IMG/VR virus record: IMGVR_UViG_3300042691_023046
Span: 1-64,000 of that record
DNA from: a virus
DNA length: 64,000 bases
Strand: one strand, 5' to 3'
Made by a program: the position numbers and the translations under genes. Shown in pieces: positions 4,568-52,244 of this stretch; position 1 is the stretch's first letter; each line of letters starts with the position of its first letter. A model generated the notes under the pieces. That model worked only from the letters and a program-made list of their open reading frames with translations. It was not told where the DNA came from and did no database searches.

Positions 4568-5461
4568 TTAAAATATATACCTTATAGGTATATTTAAATC
4601 TGATTTTACTAAATTAGTAAATTCATTAACTAATTTGTATTTTAAATTGTATTTGTATCTAACATTGTTACCACCATATAAACTTACTTTAGTTTCTTGT
4701 ATATTAGGTGTCCAAAGTAATAATTCTGGTTGTTCTATATTTTTACTTAAATTAATATTATGTAGATTTTCATTATGTGTTAAAAATATACATTCTAATC
4801 CACATTGTTTTTTAAAATCATCTGATACTTCATTATTAATTATTTTAAACAACTCTTTGTAATCTTCTATCCAATTAGGTTGATATATAATAGGACTAAA
4901 GTTTATATGTGTTGAATATCCAGCTTTATATAATTTTTCTAAAAACTTAATTCTATTAATAATTGGGCTTGTACCTTTTTCTAAAATTTGTCTTATAATT
5001 TCTGGCATTAAACTCATTCTAACTCTAATTTTATTATTAGGTTCGTAATCTAGTAATTTGTTATTTACCCATTTAGTTGCAAATGTAGCAGCTAATTTAG
5101 GATGATTTTTAAAATAATTAAATACATAAAACCAATTATAATGTTTCCACATATAGTTTATATCTGTATCACATGAAATATCTACATAATAATAAGTATC
5201 ATCTATTTGATTTGGTTTTTTAGGAAAAATTTCATCTTTTATAGCTAAATCACATTGATTTAATATTTCATCTGTATTTGTGTTAATATAAATTAATTTT
5301 CTACCAAATCTAGCAACATAACAATAACTACAAGGATTATCATATTCATTTGATTGTGTATTAGCACAACCTAATATAAAATTAGCTGATGTATAATCTG
5401 CACTTCTACCATTTTCTTTACATATAATTGTTTTAGTTTTTTGATATTTTATTATTTTCAT
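4568..5461 (-). CDS. Radical SAM protein, spore photoproduct lyase-like
   Basis: 297 aa. Near residues 31-50 a Cys at GC is followed, after a stretch reading ANTQSNEYDNP, by CSYCYVARFGRK. The C...CxxC spacing with a Tyr and basic residues after it resembles the cluster loop of spore photoproduct lyase-like radical SAM enzymes rather than canonical CxxxCxxC. A SDRMSL-like segment (RVRMSLMPEIIRQ) and THINFSPII continue the barrel. SplB-family enzymes bind a [4Fe-4S] cluster and cleave SAM; in the namesake this repairs thymine dimers. Repair of the very T-rich phage DNA is a plausible but inferred role. It sits among nucleotide metabolism genes. Confidence 0.7.
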   Translation of the reverse strand: MKIIKYQKTKTIICKENGRSADYTSANFILGCANTQSNEYDNPCSYCYVARFGRKLIYINTNTDEILNQCDLAIKDEIFPKKPNQIDDTYYYVDISCDTDINYMWKHYNWFYVFNYFKNHPKLAATFATKWVNNKLLDYEPNNKIRVRMSLMPEIIRQILEKGTSPIINRIKFLEKLYKAGYSTHINFSPIIYQPNWIEDYKELFKIINNEVSDDFKKQCGLECIFLTHNENLHNINLSKNIEQPELLLWTPNIQETKVSLYGGNNVRYKYNLKYKLVNEFTNLVKSDLNIPIRYIF

Positions 5462-5575
5462 TAACTAATTCTTTTTTATCAATACATTTTTGACATTGTA
5501 AAAGTAAATGTAATTCATTTTTTTTACATATAATACTTCATTACAATTATTATTTATACATTTTTTTGGTATCAT
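5433..5575 (-). pseudogene. Small zinc-ribbon-like protein interrupted by a -1 frameshift
   Basis: Fills the gap between the SplB-like and dNMP kinase genes. From ATG at 5575 the frame reads MIPKKCINNNCNEVLYVKK and then, after an A8 run (5518-5525), a non-descript tail ending at 5465. Stepping back one base in the A-run instead gives NELHLLLQCQKCIDKKELVN, supplying the second Cys pair (CQKC) to match CINNNC, and ends at 5433 inside the next gene. The zero-frame codons preceding ATG are GTA AAA AAA, a canonical A_AAA_AAA slippery site. This could be a programmed frameshift, transcriptional slippage, a homopolymer sequencing error or a true lesion. Confidence 0.5.
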
Positions 5576-6369
5576 ATTATTTTTTCTTTAATAAGTATAA
5601 CTTTAACTTTTTCTATTAATTCTTCAATAGTACCATTATTATCAATTATATAATTAAATTCAGCATTATCTAAAGCTGTTTCACTAGGATGTAATTCTAC
5701 ATAAGGTCTATTACCTTCTGATAAAAGCCTATTAACTCTAATGCTAATTCCACCTCTACTTTTAATTGCTTCTAATTCGTTTTCAAATCTAGTATCGGTT
5801 ATAATCCAATTAGGATAAGTTTCACTATTAGGAACTCTTTCTTCAGGACTACATTCTCTATCCATTGGATTAACAAGTCTGTACTTGTAAGTAACTTTAT
5901 ACTCATTCATTAAACTATTAACCCAAACATTTTCATTAAGTATATTTCTCATACAATCTGTACCAACTAATTGTAACATTTTTCTTACAGTTAATAGTTC
6001 AGTATCTTCTACAATAATATATTCTCTGTTTTTATATTTTAATCTTTCTTCAAACTCTTTATTCCAAACATAAGTATAAATTCCATTTTTAACTTTTAGT
6101 TGAATATATTTTTGTTTCCATTCTTTTCCTAATTTACTATTTTTAAAATCATTATCTTCTAATTGTTCTCTAGTACAACCAATTAATAAACAAACTATGT
6201 CTTTTAAAGTATCTGCAAATTTTTTTATTTGAAAAGTTTTAGTTGTATTTAAATTAAAATACTGCTCAAATGAATAATCAATATAAACATAATCTCTTGT
6301 TAAATACTGTATAATTTTACCTACAGTATCTTTACCACTTCCTATTTTACCGCTAATTGCTATTATCAT
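5572..6369 (-). CDS. Deoxynucleoside monophosphate kinase (T4 gp1-like)
   Basis: 265 aa. N-terminal P-loop GKIGSGKD (residues 7-14) after a hydrophobic strand, followed by KKFADTLKDIVCLLIGCTREQLED, typical of phage dNMP kinases, then LLTVRKMLQLVGTDCMRN and WIITDTRFENELEAIK, the lid/substrate segments. The family phosphorylates dNMPs to dNDPs for phage DNA synthesis in the cytoplasm. The stop overlaps the frameshifted small gene; the start overlaps the ThyX stop by one base, so it is translationally linked to ThyX. Confidence 0.88.
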   Translation of the reverse strand: MIIAISGKIGSGKDTVGKIIQYLTRDYVYIDYSFEQYFNLNTTKTFQIKKFADTLKDIVCLLIGCTREQLEDNDFKNSKLGKEWKQKYIQLKVKNGIYTYVWNKEFEERLKYKNREYIIVEDTELLTVRKMLQLVGTDCMRNILNENVWVNSLMNEYKVTYKYRLVNPMDRECSPEERVPNSETYPNWIITDTRFENELEAIKSRGGISIRVNRLLSEGNRPYVELHPSETALDNAEFNYIIDNNGTIEELIEKVKVILIKEKII

Positions 6370-7169
6370 TATATTTTTTTATTTTTAAATGTAATTTGTC
6401 CTTGCCCTTCTAACATTTCTATTTTAGCATCTGCAAATATAGCAGGATATTTATCTTTAACTAAATAATATATTTGATTAAATATAACTCTAATTTCCCA
6501 TTCAGCATGAATTGATGTTCTAGCTTCAATAGTTTGTCTTAATGTTCTTAAATTAACACTAAAACCTATTTCATTAGATTGACCATTAGGCATAATTCTT
6601 CTCATCGCAGATGTATATTTTTTCTTTTTAGAAAAATCAGTCATGCTATCTAATCCTAGTTTTTCTTCAATGATTTTATATTGATTTTCAATAGATTTTC
6701 TTATTTCTTCTATTTCATCATAAACTGGTTCTAATATAGGGTCAACTACTAATTTTAATACATCATTTCTAACATATCTACCACTTGTTTGACTAAATGC
6801 AGTTCCTACCCTATGTCTTACTAATTCATGTGTAAACACTCTACTACAATCAGTTACTACAAAATTTAAATTACAATGTTCAAAAACACTTCCATGTTGT
6901 GAATCAATTGTACTAATAATATTATCATGTATAGCTCTAACTTTACTAATATTTTTATTTTTCTTATTAGTTAAACTAGCATAACATAATTTAGCATAAA
7001 AAGAACAAAGTATTTCTCCTTCATTTAAACCTTCTTTTATACTTTGATTAATTTCATCAACAAATTCAAATTGGTCAGTATCAGTTAAATATTGTATTAA
7101 ATTATCTATATTTAATGATGTTGCTCCTATAAAATAGGTTTTTGGTATTACAAAATTTTTATTTTTCAT
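6369..7169 (-). CDS. thyX: Flavin-dependent thymidylate synthase ThyX
   Basis: 266 aa. Contains the ThyX signature RHRxxxxxSxxSxRY as RHRVGTAFSQTSGRYVR (residues 118-134), and an upstream SVFEHCNLNFVV helix/strand with the FAD-site His. ThyX methylates dUMP to dTMP using methylenetetrahydrofolate and FAD. For a genome this rich in A and T, dTTP supply is an obvious need. The next gene in the operon is dNMP kinase, which acts on the product. Confidence 0.93.
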   Translation of the reverse strand: MKNKNFVIPKTYFIGATSLNIDNLIQYLTDTDQFEFVDEINQSIKEGLNEGEILCSFYAKLCYASLTNKKNKNISKVRAIHDNIISTIDSQHGSVFEHCNLNFVVTDCSRVFTHELVRHRVGTAFSQTSGRYVRNDVLKLVVDPILEPVYDEIEEIRKSIENQYKIIEEKLGLDSMTDFSKKKKYTSAMRRIMPNGQSNEIGFSVNLRTLRQTIEARTSIHAEWEIRVIFNQIYYLVKDKYPAIFADAKIEMLEGQGQITFKNKKI

Positions 7170-7540: not shown

Positions 7541-8053
7541 TTATAACATATAATTATTTACAATAATATTGTAATTATCAGTAACTCTTTTTGAAAAAAT
7601 ATCATTAATAGTTTCAAAATAGTTATTTATTTTTGTATTACCATTATAAACTAAAGTTCTATTAATAGAATATTTTTTACTTTTAAATAAATTTACTATT
7701 TCAGATGGTTGATAAGCATTTCTTGTTGTTAATATGTGCATTATTGTATATCTAGCTGATACTGTATGAGTTTCTCTTAATTTACCAAATAATTGATTTA
7801 TTTCAATACCCCAAACTTTACAAGTTTCTACTATTAATTTTTCAAAAATACGTTGTTTTTCATTATTATTAGAAGTAAATTTACCTGTTATTTTTACATT
7901 TTTATTAACAATTCTATTTAATATTTCTAATTCAAGTATTCTTCTTTCTAATGTCAACATATATTCTGATTGACTTTGTTGAAGTTGTAATAATTCTTTA
8001 TATCTATGATAATTCTTTTCACGAACAGATTTTTTTTCAACTTTATCTACCAT
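7541..8053 (-). CDS. DnaA domain IV-like DNA-binding protein
   Basis: 170 aa. An N-terminal charged coiled-coil (about residues 1-55) precedes a C-terminal segment, residues 70-160, that follows the DnaA domain IV pattern. It has a helix ending in VWGIEINQLFGK, the basic LRETHTVSARYTIMHIL helix, an LxxRNAYQPSEIVNLF helix, and a final YSINRTLVYNG segment in place of the DnaA 'DHSTV' signature. Domain IV recognises DnaA boxes. There is no AAA+ domain, so it may be a site-specific DNA binder or origin factor. Its start overlaps the UNG-like gene stop by 7 bases. Confidence 0.72.
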   Translation of the reverse strand: MVDKVEKKSVREKNYHRYKELLQLQQSQSEYMLTLERRILELEILNRIVNKNVKITGKFTSNNNEKQRIFEKLIVETCKVWGIEINQLFGKLRETHTVSARYTIMHILTTRNAYQPSEIVNLFKSKKYSINRTLVYNGNTKINNYFETINDIFSKRVTDNYNIIVNNYML

Positions 8054-8712
8054 TTTATTTCTTTTTGATTTGTTTCTAATAATATTTTGTTTATTTGATT
8101 AAAACAATCGTTGTATATCCATTTTCTTTTTTCATAAAATGTTATACTAGGGTGTTCTAATTCAATAATTATTGCTTTTTTTGAATTAATATACTGTTTA
8201 AGATTTACCACTTCTTTTCCTAGAAGTAAATAAATAACAGTATTTTCTTTTGCTTCTAAAGATAAAAGAAGGGCTTGAATAAACTTTTCCCAACCAATAG
8301 ACTTATGACTACCAGATTTGTTTTTTTCAACACTCAAAGACTTATTAAGCAGTAAAACTCCTTGTTCAGCTAGTCTAGTTAAATCCCAATCTTGTAATCT
8401 AAAACCATCATAAACACTTTCTTCAATAGCATTTAATATATTTAATGTAGTTAAAGGTACTGATAAATTTTCTTCATTACAACTAATAGCTAATCCATCA
8501 GCTTGTCCTGTAATATGTGGTTCTTTATCAATTATAACTACTTTAATATCTTTCCATTCTGTTAATTTTAATGCTTTAAAATAATCTTTATTTACTGGTT
8601 CTATTTTACAACCACGTTCTCTTTCTTTATATAAATGAGTACCTATATTTTTAAAATAGGTACTCACAAATTCATTTTTTAGGATTTTATCCCATTGTTC
8701 TGATATTACCAT
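8047..8712 (-). CDS. Uracil-DNA glycosylase-like protein with altered catalytic motif
   Basis: 221 aa, about the length of family 1 UNG. KVVIIDKEPHITGQADGLAIS (residues 57-77) aligns with UNG 'vilGQDPYHgpgqAhGLaFS', but the GQDPYH box reads DKEPH, so Glu64 sits where the catalytic Asp should be. GVLLLNKSLSVEKNKSGSH...GWEKF is the family's 'GVLLLNtvLTV..g.a.SH...GWe.F'. LEHPSITFYEKRKW is the HPSP loop without its last Pro. Canonical UNG excises uracil from DNA. The changes could reduce activity or turn it into a uracil-DNA binder. Its neighbour is a very acidic small protein. Confidence 0.85.
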   Translation of the reverse strand: MVISEQWDKILKNEFVSTYFKNIGTHLYKERERGCKIEPVNKDYFKALKLTEWKDIKVVIIDKEPHITGQADGLAISCNEENLSVPLTTLNILNAIEESVYDGFRLQDWDLTRLAEQGVLLLNKSLSVEKNKSGSHKSIGWEKFIQALLLSLEAKENTVIYLLLGKEVVNLKQYINSKKAIIIELEHPSITFYEKRKWIYNDCFNQINKILLETNQKEIKW

Positions 8713-8933
8713 TCTTCATCATCTTCATCATCAATATCATCAAAATCTATAAAATCAATACTATCAGAACCATCAAATAAATCTTCATCTTTAAAATCTA
8801 AACTATTATCTTCACTTTCAAAGTCCAATTTATCATTTTGTTGTGAATCATCATATTTATCAAGTTCTTCAATTTCACAACATTCATCAGCTATACACTC
8901 TTTTGGTGTTTTACAATTTAAACATGTTTTCAT
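8706..8933 (-). CDS. Highly acidic small protein with N-terminal Cys cluster
   Basis: 75 aa. The N-terminus has CLNCKTPKECIADECC, a possible metal site. The rest is almost entirely Asp/Glu/Ser with aromatic spacers and ends FDDIDDEDDEEW. Such composition occurs in DNA mimics and in acidic tails that bind SSB partners. It overlaps the start of the UNG-like gene by 7 bases, so the two are coupled. A DNA-mimic role is inference. Confidence 0.78.
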   Translation of the reverse strand: MKTCLNCKTPKECIADECCEIEELDKYDDSQQNDKLDFESEDNSLDFKDEDLFDGSDSIDFIDFDDIDDEDDEEW

Positions 8934-10502: not shown

Positions 10503-10724
10503 TTATTCTATTTTTATAAATTTTAAATTTGTTTTAGTTTTTCCATGAGTATAATAACCTTTTTTACTTCTACTATTTCTAACAATAGTATTACTTTTAA
10601 TACCTAACATATTAGCTATTTTTGTTAAAAATTCTTTTTCATGAATAACTTCTTTTGTATCAAAATTTATAACTTTATAATAAGTTCTGTTAAAATATTC
10701 ACTATCTTCTATATTTTGTATCAT
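10503..10724 (-). CDS. Small putative HTH protein, NUMOD-like
   Basis: 73 aa. KVINFDTKEVIHEKEFLTKIANMLGIKSNTIVRNSRSK resembles the small modular helix-turn-helix of NUMOD1/intron-encoded nuclease repeat regions (strand, 'eF.s...ia..LgI...ti...', basic tail). No nuclease core is present. It overlaps the polymerase stop by 4 bases. Confidence 0.68.
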   Translation of the reverse strand: MIQNIEDSEYFNRTYYKVINFDTKEVIHEKEFLTKIANMLGIKSNTIVRNSRSKKGYYTHGKTKTNLKFIKIE

Positions 10725-12745
10725 AATAATTGTATTTGTTTTGATTCAAATTCATTTTGTATTTCTCTACATTTTATTATATAATAATCATAATTTATAT
10801 CATAATATCTTAAAAGTTCTGATTGTTCTGTTAAATCTACTTCACCATCTTCTGTATTATAAATTTGAAAATTTCTTAAATCTTCATATTTATTAAATAT
10901 TTTAACAGCAAAACCTTTTAACATATTTTCTGGTTCTTTACTTGAAGGTTTTTCTTTATATAAATATGCTCCTTTGTTTGAAACATAAAACCTGTTTAAC
11001 CTTTGTTGTCTGAAACCATTCCAGAATACTTTATAAGATTTATCTACTTTATAACAAGCACAAAAATCATATATATCTGTATGATTTTTAATAGTTGTTT
11101 CAAACGGTATATTATTAATAAAATATTCTCTTAAAGCTATTGATATAATTGTAAAATCATGTGAACGTGATAATTCCATAAATACATCATCTAAAGGTTT
11201 ACTTATAAAATAACCTTTTTCTTTATATTTACCTTTATCATCTACTGCTAAATAATTATTAATATTGTTTCTAATTACTTTTTTGTAAATAACAGATTCC
11301 ATTTCCATTTTACTAATAGTTTCCCACTCTTTAATTATTTGTTTAACTTGTTCTTTAAGTTCTTGTTTATATTTAATAGTAACACCATCAGTGTTACACA
11401 TATCTATTATAACACCTATATTAGCAAGTTTTTCACATAACATTAAAAGAAATAATTGTCCATTAATAGTTATCATTAAAGTTTTTGACCAGTCGTACAT
11501 ACAAGTGTATTCAGAATTTAAATTCCCAAAAAATCCTCCATTTAACGCTAATTTTAATAAGTTTGCTTCTGCTGATTTACCTAAACCTTCACGTTTAAGT
11601 TTTAATCTTTCATTTTTTATATTATTTAATTCTTCTGCAAATTCATTACCTAAATGTTTAGGAACAACTTTCCATTCAGCACCTAAACTTGGGTAGTAGC
11701 TACTGACATCAACGTCCTCATATATAAATCCTTCTTCTTGTTCAACAATTTCTGCTTTATGATAACTGTGTAATCCACCGCTCTTGATATCATATCTTAA
11801 ACCTTTAAACATAACTTCAAATGATAATTCATTTGTACTTGTTACTGATAAAGTTTTTAAATGTTCTAATAAAGCATAAAAATTCTTATATTGTGAATGT
11901 TGTTTACTTTTTAAAGTATAAGTATAAAGTTTTAAATCTAAATCATTTTTTGGTTTATCAAATTTTATAACATCAAAAATAATATCTTTTAAATGAACTA
12001 TTGAATTATGTGTTCTTAAATCTTTAACTACTGATTCTTCTAAACCTGTTCTATCACAATATCTTTTAACTAATACATTTAAACCTAATTTAACAGAATC
12101 CCAACTATAACAATGAAAACCATATTTTCTATGTGCTGCTAATCTTAAATTTATTTCTCCAACCATTAAATTAGCTAATATTTTAGTAATCTTCATATTT
12201 CTAGTTCCATGATTGAATATTATATCCATTTCATCAAAATCTAAATATTTATCTACATCTATTGGTTGTTCAGTTATATCAGGATAATTAATGTTACAAG
12301 CTAAAGTATTTAATGATAACTTTTTAGAAATTCTAAGCATTTTACTCCAATAAAGAAATAAATCAATACTTATAGGTGGAAAACCATATTTATATTTTTT
12401 ATAAAAATCAAAATTTTTCTTAAAACCATATTTCATTTCAGTATCACTATCTTCTGTCATTTTATCATTTAAAGTTTTTAATTCTTTATTGATAGTATTT
12501 GTTGAAGCGTTAGAAAATCTATTATAGTTTTTTATTAAATAATTAATTATTATATCATCATAGTTTATATTGTTAAAACCTATTACATAATGAGTGTCTT
12601 TACTTTTAAATAATTCTACTATTTCTTTTAAATCATTTCTTCTATAAGATATTTCAAATAATCTTTGTTCATTAGTACTAAAATCTTCAATACTGGCTGA
12701 AAAAAAGTTAGAGTAAACCTCAATATTATATATAAACCTATTCAT
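10721..12745 (-). CDS. Family B DNA polymerase
   Basis: 674 aa. Exonuclease half: Exo I position reads IYNIEVYSNFF (Asn7 instead of the usual Asp of DxE), Exo II is GFNNINYDDIIINYL. Polymerase half: motif A DVSSYYPSLGAEW (about residue 343), motif B LLKLALNGGFFGNLN (about 395), motif C CNTDGVTIKY (about 450, TDG in place of the usual DTDS). This is the replicative polymerase. Crassvirales carry either family A or family B enzymes. A basic C-terminal domain follows motif C. The Exo I change questions the proofreading activity. It is followed at 4 bases by the Gp157-like gene upstream in transcription. Confidence 0.92.
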   Translation of the reverse strand: MNRFIYNIEVYSNFFSASIEDFSTNEQRLFEISYRRNDLKEIVELFKSKDTHYVIGFNNINYDDIIINYLIKNYNRFSNASTNTINKELKTLNDKMTEDSDTEMKYGFKKNFDFYKKYKYGFPPISIDLFLYWSKMLRISKKLSLNTLACNINYPDITEQPIDVDKYLDFDEMDIIFNHGTRNMKITKILANLMVGEINLRLAAHRKYGFHCYSWDSVKLGLNVLVKRYCDRTGLEESVVKDLRTHNSIVHLKDIIFDVIKFDKPKNDLDLKLYTYTLKSKQHSQYKNFYALLEHLKTLSVTSTNELSFEVMFKGLRYDIKSGGLHSYHKAEIVEQEEGFIYEDVDVSSYYPSLGAEWKVVPKHLGNEFAEELNNIKNERLKLKREGLGKSAEANLLKLALNGGFFGNLNSEYTCMYDWSKTLMITINGQLFLLMLCEKLANIGVIIDMCNTDGVTIKYKQELKEQVKQIIKEWETISKMEMESVIYKKVIRNNINNYLAVDDKGKYKEKGYFISKPLDDVFMELSRSHDFTIISIALREYFINNIPFETTIKNHTDIYDFCACYKVDKSYKVFWNGFRQQRLNRFYVSNKGAYLYKEKPSSKEPENMLKGFAVKIFNKYEDLRNFQIYNTEDGEVDLTEQSELLRYYDINYDYYIIKCREIQNEFESKQIQLL

Positions 12746-20554: not shown

Positions 20555-21157
20555 TTATTCTATTAATTGTTTATTTTCTGCATTAAATTTTAATCCATGT
20601 AAAGGACATTCAATAATTTTTTGCCATTTTCCACCTTTATTATTACGACCTAATTTTTTAAATACAACAGGTTCTTGTGATAAATTATATCCTCTATGAG
20701 GACATTTATTGTTTTTAATACATTTATTTTTTAATTTATCTATTTTAACTTGTCCTGCAATACCATAATTATTTAATCTAATACATTTTAATTCTTTGTA
20801 TTCTATTTTATAATGTTGTTCAAAATCTATATTTAATTTAGGTTCTAAATCATATCGTATATTAGGTGCAAATTCATGATTACTGTGAAGTTTTAAAGGG
20901 TTATTATATTTACCTGTTTCTATAAATCTAAAATCTACATGATAATGTTTATAATTTTGTCCATTTTCTTTGTCTGAATGTAGATGATTTATTATAGGAT
21001 AAATATGAAGTCTAATAGATTTACGTAATTTTAATTTATTTTTACTATTTATATACCAATTTTCATTATTTAAATAATATTTTTTAATAATACAAGGTAC
21101 TAAATACATTTGTCCTATAATAGGTTGAGTTTTTAATTCATCTATTTTTTGTAACAT
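20555..21157 (-). CDS. Rieske-like [2Fe-2S] protein
   Basis: 200 aa. The C-terminal quarter has both Rieske boxes: CPHRGYNL (Cys152, His154) and ECPLHGLKFN (Cys184, His187), i.e. CxH - 29 residues - CxxH, the ligands of a [2Fe-2S] cluster. The N-terminal part (GQMYLVPCII, then IINHLHSDKENG and KHYHVDFRF) is rich in His/Asp and may be a second metal site. Rieske domains carry electrons to oxygenases or are structural. No oxygenase subunit is seen here, and the phage role is unknown. It lies between replication genes and may serve redox chemistry on nucleotides, RNA or protein. Confidence 0.72.
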   Translation of the reverse strand: MLQKIDELKTQPIIGQMYLVPCIIKKYYLNNENWYINSKNKLKLRKSIRLHIYPIINHLHSDKENGQNYKHYHVDFRFIETGKYNNPLKLHSNHEFAPNIRYDLEPKLNIDFEQHYKIEYKELKCIRLNNYGIAGQVKIDKLKNKCIKNNKCPHRGYNLSQEPVVFKKLGRNNKGGKWQKIIECPLHGLKFNAENKQLIE

Positions 21158-30393: not shown

Positions 30394-31170
30394 TTATTTA
30401 TATGATTCTTTTAATTGTTTAATAATATTTGAACCATAACTATTTTCTACTAATTTTATAAATTCTATTACTGTAAATTTATCTTTTTTAATATTAATAT
30501 TATTATTTATACAAAAAGAATTTCTTCCCATATCACAACTTCCTGTTAATTTATAATGCCAATTATAATATTCAATAGCTTTATATTTTTTATTATTATT
30601 ATTAAAAAATTGTTTAAATTTTATAATTCTATCTGTAATAGGTAATTTTATTAATAATTTATTTTGTAATTGTTCAACAGCTTCTTTAATTGTGTTTCCA
30701 TGAGCAAATTCATTTTCTCCTTTAGCTATATAACAAGAAATTAAAGATAAATCTTCTTGTACTATAAAACCTTTAGCTATATTATTTTTAACAGATATAA
30801 TTATAGTTTGAATATTATCAATTAAATATATTTTTTGACTATTCAATGAAATTAATCTATCTCCATCTCCATATCCATCTCCATCTCCATATCCATTTTC
30901 ATATCCATTTTCATCTCCATATCCATTTTCATATCCATTTTCATTTCCATATCCATATCCATTTCCATATCCATCTCCATATCCATTTCCATATCCATTT
31001 CCATATCCATTTCCATTTCCATCTCCATATCCATTTCCATTTCCATCTCCATCTCCATATCCATTTCCATCTCCATCTCCATATCCATTTCCATCTCCAT
31101 CTCCATATCCATTTTCATTTCTACTTATATATGTAAAATTTCTTTTAATAAAACATTCTATTTTTTCCAT
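30394..31170 (-). CDS. Gly-X repeat protein of a gut-phage family
   Basis: 258 aa. A short head (EKIECFIKRNFTYISRNEN) is followed by about 85 residues alternating Gly with Tyr, Asp, Asn or Glu (residues 18-102, for example GYGDGDGNGYGDGDG). A conserved C-terminal part follows: KIYLIDNIQTII, AKGFIVQEDLSLISCYIAKG, FAHGNTIKEAVEQLQNKL, YYNWHYKLTGSCDMGR, KFTVIEFIKLVENSYGSNII. I recognise this combination from Bacteroidales phage proteins; the function is unknown. The repeat may form a disordered or amyloid-like segment. Start overlaps the DUF6948-like gene stop by 13 bases. Confidence 0.83.
   Translation of the reverse strand: MEKIECFIKRNFTYISRNENGYGDGDGNGYGDGDGNGYGDGDGNGNGYGDGNGNGYGNGYGNGYGDGYGNGYGYGNENGYENGYGDENGYENGYGDGDGYGDGDRLISLNSQKIYLIDNIQTIIISVKNNIAKGFIVQEDLSLISCYIAKGENEFAHGNTIKEAVEQLQNKLLIKLPITDRIIKFKQFFNNNNKKYKAIEYYNWHYKLTGSCDMGRNSFCINNNINIKKDKFTVIEFIKLVENSYGSNIIKQLKESYK
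30860..31119. repeat. Hexanucleotide tandem tract (CCAtNN)n inside a gene
   Basis: About 43 consecutive 6-bp units reading CCATAT, CCATCT, CCATTT or CCATTTTCAT-type on the + strand, equivalent to GGA plus (T/G/A)AT or GAA codons on the coding strand. Because the unit is 6 bp, gain or loss of units keeps the reading frame. It generates long spurious open frames on both strands here. Confidence 0.9.
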
Positions 31171-50741: not shown

Positions 50742-52244
50742 ATGAACGGAAAAATAGCAAATGAACTAGTCTTAACACAAGACACTTATAAAGATAGTGC
50801 TTATTCAAGCATTACTGAATTAAGTAAAGCTTTACAGACTGATGCAGAATGGTTATCACCTATAGTAACTTTTTTATCTTATACAGATACTAAATACTAT
50901 ATGAAGAAAAACTACCCTTTTTTATACCAAACAGAAGGTAATAAAAATGTAGAAAGTTTAACTAAATTAGGTAATGCTAATTTTGAATACAAATATCCTA
51001 TTATAGGTAGATTAAAAACTACTAACCAAGTAGCAGTTACTTCTTTTTCATCTACAGACCAAGTAGGTAAAAATGGTATGCCTTTCCAAATGATATTTGC
51101 AGATAGACAGTTTTCAATAGGACAAACAGTTTATCCTTATGGTGTAAGTTCTAAATTACAATGTAGAGTATTAGTAGCACCAGAAAAAGTAAGTAATGGA
51201 TATAAATATACATTTAAAATATTTAATTCAAGTCCTACTTTGTTTTTACCTTTTCAAAGTTTAATAGCAGGAGCAGTTTGGAGTGCAGGTTTAAGAAAAG
51301 TTGCATTTGAAGGTTCAAAAGGAGGAGAATCACGTTCTCAATTACCTAGTACAGCAACTAATATGGTAACTTTAACTCGTAATACTTACAAGTTTAAAGG
51401 TAACGTAGATAAAAAAGTAATGAAATTTTCTATTCCTATAGATGGACAGAAATTTACTACTTATATGGATTGGGAATTGTTTTTAAGTAAAATTTATTTT
51501 AAAGAAGAACAAGAAGAAGATTTATTATGGTCGCAATATGGTAAAACTGCTAGTGGAGATTTCTCTAACTATGATGATGATGCTCCTATTACATCAGGAG
51601 CAGGTATTGAGCAGCAAATTCCTAGTAGTAATTCAGATACTTATAGTTTTTTAACTTTAAATAAGTGGAAAAATATTGTACGTGAGGTAACTTATGGTAT
51701 TAATGATGATATTACAGATTTACATGTTTACACAGGTAGAGGTGGTATGGAAGAATTTGATAATGCAGTTAAATCTGGATTTGTTAATTTCTTATCTAGT
51801 TCTAATGTATTAGCTAATAGTGATAAATTTATACAAGGTGCAAATTCTTGGGATATGACATTTGGTTCATATTTTAATAAATATCGTGTAGTTGATGGAC
51901 AAGTAATAACAGTACATTATCACCCATTATTAGATTTTGGTCGTAGAGCAAAAGCAGCAGTTAAGCATCCTGTTACTGGTTTTCCAATGACATCACATAA
52001 TTTCTACTTTATAGACCAATCACAAGTTGATGGTAAACCAAACTTACAATATGTAAGTGAAGATGGTAGAGAAAAAATGAAGATTGTACAAGGTATGACA
52101 GGTATGCCAGTAGGATTTACAGATAGTGTAAATGTTTCAACAGATAAAGATGAAACATCTATAGAATGGATGAAATCACATGGTATTTTAATTCGCAGAC
52201 CTTCTAGTTGTTTCAAATTAGAATGTACATTAAGCGGATTTTAG
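50742..52244 (+). CDS. Major capsid protein
   Basis: 500 aa. N-terminus (VLTQDTYKDSAYSSITELSK, then DAEWLSPIVTFLSYTDTKYY) resembles crAss-like major capsid proteins, whose HK97-fold N-arm contains such a 'dtYkDSayssItel..al..da.WlspivtfLsyt.tKYym' sequence. A large insertion with Gly-rich loops is in the middle, and AAVKHPVTGFPMTSHNFYFI near the C-terminus. It is the last recognised head shell gene and lies before the tRNA-like element. Confidence 0.85.
   Translation: MNGKIANELVLTQDTYKDSAYSSITELSKALQTDAEWLSPIVTFLSYTDTKYYMKKNYPFLYQTEGNKNVESLTKLGNANFEYKYPIIGRLKTTNQVAVTSFSSTDQVGKNGMPFQMIFADRQFSIGQTVYPYGVSSKLQCRVLVAPEKVSNGYKYTFKIFNSSPTLFLPFQSLIAGAVWSAGLRKVAFEGSKGGESRSQLPSTATNMVTLTRNTYKFKGNVDKKVMKFSIPIDGQKFTTYMDWELFLSKIYFKEEQEEDLLWSQYGKTASGDFSNYDDDAPITSGAGIEQQIPSSNSDTYSFLTLNKWKNIVREVTYGINDDITDLHVYTGRGGMEEFDNAVKSGFVNFLSSSNVLANSDKFIQGANSWDMTFGSYFNKYRVVDGQVITVHYHPLLDFGRRAKAAVKHPVTGFPMTSHNFYFIDQSQVDGKPNLQYVSEDGREKMKIVQGMTGMPVGFTDSVNVSTDKDETSIEWMKSHGILIRRPSSCFKLECTLSGF

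Follow-up and report, generated by a model that had tools for sequence, protein, structure and literature searches.

The window analysed here, the first 64,000 of the 83,728 bases of the viral record IMGVR_UViG_3300042691_023046, has a G+C content of 24.1%. A 69-bp direct repeat is common to both ends of the 83.7-kb genome, which is therefore probably complete and circular. The phage is crAss-like (Crassvirales), as judged from a capsid protein that matches the Pfam family Crass_capsid (E = 5.5e-56) and from terminase and portal matches. The gene of interest, at 8047..8712 on the minus strand, starts with ATG, stops with TAG, and encodes a 221-residue protein predicted from sequence and fold matches to be a catalytically impaired homologue of family 1 uracil-DNA glycosylase (UNG). 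It resides in a replication module that comprises ThyX, a nucleotide kinase, a DNA polymerase, a Gp157-like protein, a Toprim (primase-like) protein, and a DnaB helicase. The flavin-dependent thymidylate synthase ThyX (6369..7169; Thy1, E = 4.1e-37) and the deoxynucleotide monophosphate kinase (5572..6369; DNMK, E = 1.1e-16) share the strand of the UNG-like gene, and the DNA polymerase gene (10721..12745, minus strand; phrog_1252) lies close to it. The neighbouring small ORFs and the polymerase gave little or no match to Pfam, PHROG, and PDB.

Several other products of the window are worth recording. A 75-aa protein encoded at 8706-8933 overlaps the start of the UNG-like gene; it has a Cys-rich start and no Pfam match, and its highly acidic tail, which closes with DDEDDEEW, is possibly a DNA mimic or a protein-contact tail. 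Positions 4568-5461 encode a spore photoproduct lyase-like protein (Pfam SPL, E = 6.2e-18), here in a crAss-like phage, and 20555-21157 a phage protein with a Rieske [2Fe-2S]-like domain (E = 3.7e-5). A 258-aa protein at 30394-31170 carries a long Gly/Tyr/Asn/Asp repeat, encoded by a tandem array based on a 12-base unit at 30862-31121.

A uracil-DNA glycosylase fold with an altered active site

The UNG-like protein is homologous to family 1 UNG over its full length, in sequence and in fold. It matches the Pfam UDG family with 28.1 bits (cut-off 24.3), and the best phmmer hit among solved UNGs is a whole-length match to the Coxiella enzyme (3tr7, E = 3.7e-27). NCBIfam UNG models match with E-values down to 9.5e-51; one equivalog model scores above its cut-off and four score below theirs. 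The AlphaFold2 model, built with 54 aligned sequences, has a mean pLDDT of 96, and VIA-align superposes it on DNA-bound human UNG with Z = 30.8 and 1.8 Å over 217 residues. With E. coli Ung and human UNG the protein shares full-length homology, the fold (Z about 30, 1.8-2.0 Å), the LLLN motif, the catalytic His, H136, and W141; it differs by D64E, Y66H, F77I, Q63K, and G62D, and in the PPS, GS, and Leu loops. The PHROG family to which it belongs (12143) is labelled ‘unknown function’, and single-protein searches of viral_contigs with the UNG-like protein, and likewise with the polymerase, returned no relatives. A sequencing error or a chance ORF was considered and rejected, given that the Glu described below is common to a syntenic homologue from another metagenome.

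To describe the active site, we number residues as in E. coli Ung, which serves as the ruler. A passage of PMC1936997, which also holds a motif table, names Q63, D64, Y66, F77, N123, and H187 as active-site residues, and D64 is described in part of PMC13160076 as the residue that activates water. The window protein includes VVIIDKEPHITGQADGLAIS, then QGVLLLN, then ELEHPSITF. Its motif 1, the water-activating loop (residues 62-67, 8512..8529, minus strand), reads DKEPHI in place of GQDPYH, encoded by GAT AAA GAA CCA CAT ATT, and thus carries G62D, Q63K, D64E, and Y66H. Neither the GQDPYH box with Asp64 nor the Tyr66 and Phe77 of family 1 is found: His occupies position 66, and Ile at residue 76 (8485..8487, minus strand; codon ATT) aligns with the base-stacking F77 of E. 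coli. The uracil-specificity motif LLLN with Asn123 is kept (residues 120-123, 8344..8355, minus strand, by alignment), as are H187-P188-S189 and the fold core. The HPSI stretch (residues 187-190, 8143..8154, minus strand, by alignment) belongs to a Leu-intercalation loop that reads HPSITF for HPSPLS, in which HPS and the catalytic His are kept while the Leu is lost; this Leu is also absent from many Asp-type phage UNGs. The PPS loop reads PLT (S88T, L89T), and K replaces S in the Gly-Ser loop (GS to GK). The initial annotation, made from the DNA letters, had described an ORF at 8047-8712 with DKEPH, HPSI, and Glu at the Asp position, all of which we confirm; its statement that the remaining fold motifs are intact does not hold, given the further changes G62D, Q63K, Y66H, F77I, S88T, L89T, the Lys of the GS loop, and the altered Leu loop.

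The extent of the change can be gauged against 32 alignment columns that are at least 90% conserved among 80 Asp-type rows. The window protein departs at 10 of them and its sister from phage G019 at six; L012, the next crAss-like relative, agrees at all 32, and Asp-type rows depart at 0.80 columns on average and at eight at most. In the window protein, the departures fall on six of the nine pocket columns versus four of the 23 others (Fisher p = 0.013, a post hoc comparison); the conserved sites changed outside the pocket are L89T, W114L, T127S, and A168V. In a set of 159 unique UNG-like sequences, His66 and Ile77 are each confined to the window protein.

Relatives in crAss-like phages and the recurrence of Glu64

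Sister phages were found using the major capsid protein (50742..52244, plus strand) as bait, and their records were then examined for UNG. A UNG match was present in five of the 21 sister records, the other 16 being fragments of 5.9-26.5 kb. The five phages (G019, G001, G004, G006, and G029) have capsid proteins 41-54% identical to that of the window. The nearest relative found is G019 (IMGVR_UViG_3300043436_003696, 90 kb; capsid 51% and UNG 46% identical), whose UNG box reads GQEPY in a pocket otherwise intact except for S88A. The next is G001 (IMGVR_UViG_3300045922_000122; capsid 52-54%, UNG 37-38%), with GQDPY, the box also found in G004, G006, and G029. Homologues with the restored box, which the initial annotation had set against its own reading, do exist in related crAss-like phages, yet the closest one found carries Glu.

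These phage UNGs are orthologous to the window protein by sequence and, in the two that were compared (G019 and G001), by position: in all three genomes the UNG gene is opposite in strand to, and faces, one common large ORF. The replication module is co-linear between the window and its sister phages. Two local features of G019 stand out, namely a MazG-like pyrophosphohydrolase encoded two genes downstream of UNG (L150, 4381-4920) and a polymerase swap, in which the phrog_1252 polymerase of the window (10721-12745) is replaced, at the equivalent place in the replication module near UNG, by a polymerase of family A that an HNH ORF interrupts (L255, 10608-13107). Eight of the 29 window proteins tried found a match in the stretches of G019 that were compared. 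The UNG-like protein is 45.5% identical to its counterpart, inside the 38.9-74.1% range of the other seven, and the gene therefore evolves like its neighbours. Base composition by codon position also resembles that of other phage genes, and on these sequence measures the gene does not appear to be simply rotting.

To place the substitution in a wider context, 206 UNG-like loci from viral contigs and phage records were reduced to 160 unique sequences, of which 159 were aligned, with rows extracted mechanically. Four of the 159 rows contain one in-frame stop each. Position 64 is Asp in 142 sequences, Glu in 15, Thr in one, and Cys in one, with 10 of the 15 Glu rows stemming from a scan directed at Glu. 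N123 is invariant across the 159 sequences, and H187 is changed in two, phi14:2 (Asp) and L173 (Tyr), both of them Glu rows. Together with E. coli Ung the alignment gave 160 rows, thinned of similar ones to 92 for a quick tree search from which the motif columns were left out; two of the rows with a stop remain, including the Glu row L149. The window protein and that of G019 are joined with support of 99, and they group with G001, G004, G029, G006, and others with moderate support (88-92). The fewest Asp/Glu changes on the 92-row tree number eight, or four without the rows from the Glu-directed scan. A single clade of the window, G019, and phi14:2 is not rejected (p-AU = 0.15), and the true minimum may accordingly be one change lower. 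A single origin of all Glu rows was rejected on the tree (p-AU = 1.4e-66). As reconstructed, the Asp-to-Glu change appears to have arisen several separate times in phages. A strong preference for Glu over every other replacement is weakly indicated (binomial p = 0.038 over six events, counting phi14:2 separately from the window and G019).

Other pocket changes occur in seven of 10 Glu rows versus five of 80 Asp rows, and in five of five Glu rows once those of the directed scan are set aside, in a comparison that ignores relatedness among the sequences; the pocket is otherwise complete in three of the 10 Glu rows. This excess of pocket and H187 changes would fit the relaxed selection on catalysis expected after an Asp-to-Glu change. 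A scan blind to motif 1 added 48 unique Asp sequences and one Cys sequence, besides the already known G019, and Glu is therefore uncommon. In viral contigs, GQEPY (with a GAA codon) was found at 29 loci, 12 of them within UNG-like genes, versus two of 23 for the matched control GQNPY (AAT codon). The pattern GQEPYHG with three preceding hydrophobic codons had no match in 84,980 cellular genomes; opened to Asp or Glu, it matched at least 119 stretches there, with Asp codons in all 80 loci listed.

Cultured phages also carry the substitution. Among phages of Flavobacterium psychrophilum, 13 records have a UNG gene that matches the FPSV-D18 gene, with its GEEPY box, at 99% identity or more, and 16 records have one that is 93.8-94.4% identical to it, represented by Fpv1 with GQDPY; the boxes were read in Fpv1 and FPSV-D18 alone. 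Over about 6.4 kb surrounding the gene, Fpv1 (L106) and FPSV-D18 (L375) differ by 32 substitutions, 31 of which lie within 160 bases of the UNG gene from the box on (L106, 3025-3184). The difference looks like a local mosaic exchange of the catalytic segment, in which GQDPY and GEEPY are swapped between stretches that are nearly identical elsewhere. In Cellulophaga phage phi14:2 (Crassvirales, Steigviridae), the annotated uracil-DNA glycosylase (L001, 2417-3127) has Glu64, Lys63, and Asp for the catalytic His187, and is probably misnamed as an enzyme, going by these residues. It resembles the window protein in Glu64 and Lys63 (GKEPY) and differs from it in keeping Y66, in having F77Y, and in the lost catalytic His (H187D). 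The ‘putative uracil-DNA glycosylase’ of the prototype crAssphage, Carjivirus communis gp15 (L110, 407-961; 184 aa), has no family 1 motif recognisable by eye.

Possible roles of the protein

A phage with uracil-containing DNA has genes that raise dUTP, such as dCTP deaminase, and no thymidylate synthesis. The window phage has ThyX, and dUTPase (PF00692, PF08761), dCTP deaminase (PF22769), and MazG were not detected in its 83,728 bases; nothing therefore indicates dU in the virion DNA. The absence of dUTPase is by itself weak, since none was found in seven of seven related records either. A uracil-DNA phage was rejected as an explanation, on the presence of ThyX and the failure to find dCTP deaminase or dUTPase, the two genes that the initial annotation had proposed to look for elsewhere in the genome. 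Its pseudoenzyme idea fares differently in its two parts. A phage UNG fold with a damaged catalytic site is supported by the pocket changes, the Glu of the sister, the kept fold, and the neighbour-like divergence. The role it proposed, in which the protein protects or marks uracil-DNA by binding it, or else blocks host UNG, we consider very improbable: the UNG fold, H187, and N123 are kept, but the genome has ThyX and no detected dUTPase or dCTP deaminase, the reading of uracil is further weakened by the loss of both the pocket Tyr66 and the stacking Phe77, and we did not meet evidence of UNG homologues that inhibit UNG.

The reading we favour, at about even confidence, is that the protein is the UNG orthologue of related crAss-like phages, with catalysis lost or strongly reduced and the fold kept, and that it serves as a non-catalytic, DNA-binding replication accessory. 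The sister has GQEPY and the next relatives have GQDPY, which places the D-to-E change first and the later losses in the window lineage. The water-activating Asp64 would have become Glu in the common ancestor with G019, and the uracil pocket would have changed further in the window lineage (G62D, Q63K, Y66H, F77I). The protein would then most likely have been retained as a DNA-binding accessory of its replication module, of a kind comparable to vaccinia D4, possibly with a partner protein. The loops that contact DNA, PPS and HPSPL, have changed too, so DNA binding may be weaker as well. A bolder form of this idea, which we hold to be quite unlikely, is that Asp-to-Glu is a recurrent, selected switch that makes of a repair enzyme a reader of DNA that does not excise, or else a replisome subunit (or that retunes it against a host factor), with the window protein as a late stage whose pocket has been rebuilt; the switch would spread by local recombination between phages, as the Flavobacterium pair suggests.

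Among the alternatives, a working but slow glycosylase is unlikely. Glu64 would act as the general base while N123 and H187 do the rest; the protein could excise uracil slowly, given that Glu retains a carboxylate and that both other residues are still there. Glu accounts for 15 of the 17 rows without Asp, though 10 of the 15 came from the Glu-directed scan, the Asn control falls within UNG-like genes less often than GQEPY, and the G019 pocket is intact save for D64E and S88A, with N123 invariant. According to a portion of PMC10776899, the UDG superfamily has no site that is invariant in all its members, and active ones without Asp may therefore be expected. Against a slow enzyme, the failure to find GQEPYHG in the 84,980 cellular genomes suggests that Asp and Glu are not equivalent, and the window protein also lacks Y66 and F77; the stacking-Phe mutant F65A of UDGX is reported as inactive in the same source. 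The joint change of Y66 and F77 in the base pocket, with H187 and N123 kept, could instead reflect a changed base specificity, in which Y66H and F77I admit another pyrimidine, such as a modified base that belongs to the host or to a competing phage. Enzymes of the superfamily with changed specificity exist, and Brig3 is described in part of PMC13160076 as excising 5hmC; yet Brig3 is a bacterial defence enzyme whose homology to UDGs is given there as weak, no base-modification genes were noticed in the vicinity, and D64E is common to the sister G019, where the pocket is otherwise nearly canonical. We regard this explanation as improbable, and give a similarly low probability to a gene on its way out, in which the need for catalysis has passed but the ORF is still unbroken. 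The changes at conserved sites outside the pocket speak for such decay; the intact ORF, the pLDDT of the model, the usual codon-position composition, the neighbour-like divergence, and the persistence of Glu after divergence from G019, now at 46% identity, speak against it.

Known systems and significance

A precedent for the favoured accessory role is vaccinia D4, a poxvirus UNG that is also a processivity factor, with altered motifs and a need in replication that is independent of catalysis, as set out in sections of PMC2630940 and PMC1936997; in the former, the vaccinia UNG protein is required for replication while its catalytic site is dispensable. D4 differs in that its Asp, Tyr, Phe, Asn, and His are all retained; it is an active UNG. 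A D4-like factor would be a UNG-fold subunit held on the polymerase through an A20-like partner; the window gene lies near a DNA polymerase gene. UDGX, another member of the UDG superfamily, also has an atypical motif 1, which reads GEQP and is accompanied by an extended loop bearing the cross-linking His109 (in an extract of PMC10776899); the window protein has DKEP, not GEQP, at motif 1.

The presence of UDG in crAss-like phages was already known, as stated in a passage of PMC7886860. A search of the open-licence PMC literature turned up no account of a UNG with Glu in the place of Asp.

The usual view of UNG is that of a housekeeping enzyme of repair, and its phage copies carry the annotation of active enzymes. 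Should phages repeatedly drop the catalytic Asp and yet keep the protein, UNG would have a second, non-catalytic job in phage replication, of the kind seen in poxviruses, and some phage ‘uracil-DNA glycosylase’ labels would be wrong. The nearly identical cultured Flavobacterium phages, with natural Asp and Glu versions, make the question directly testable.
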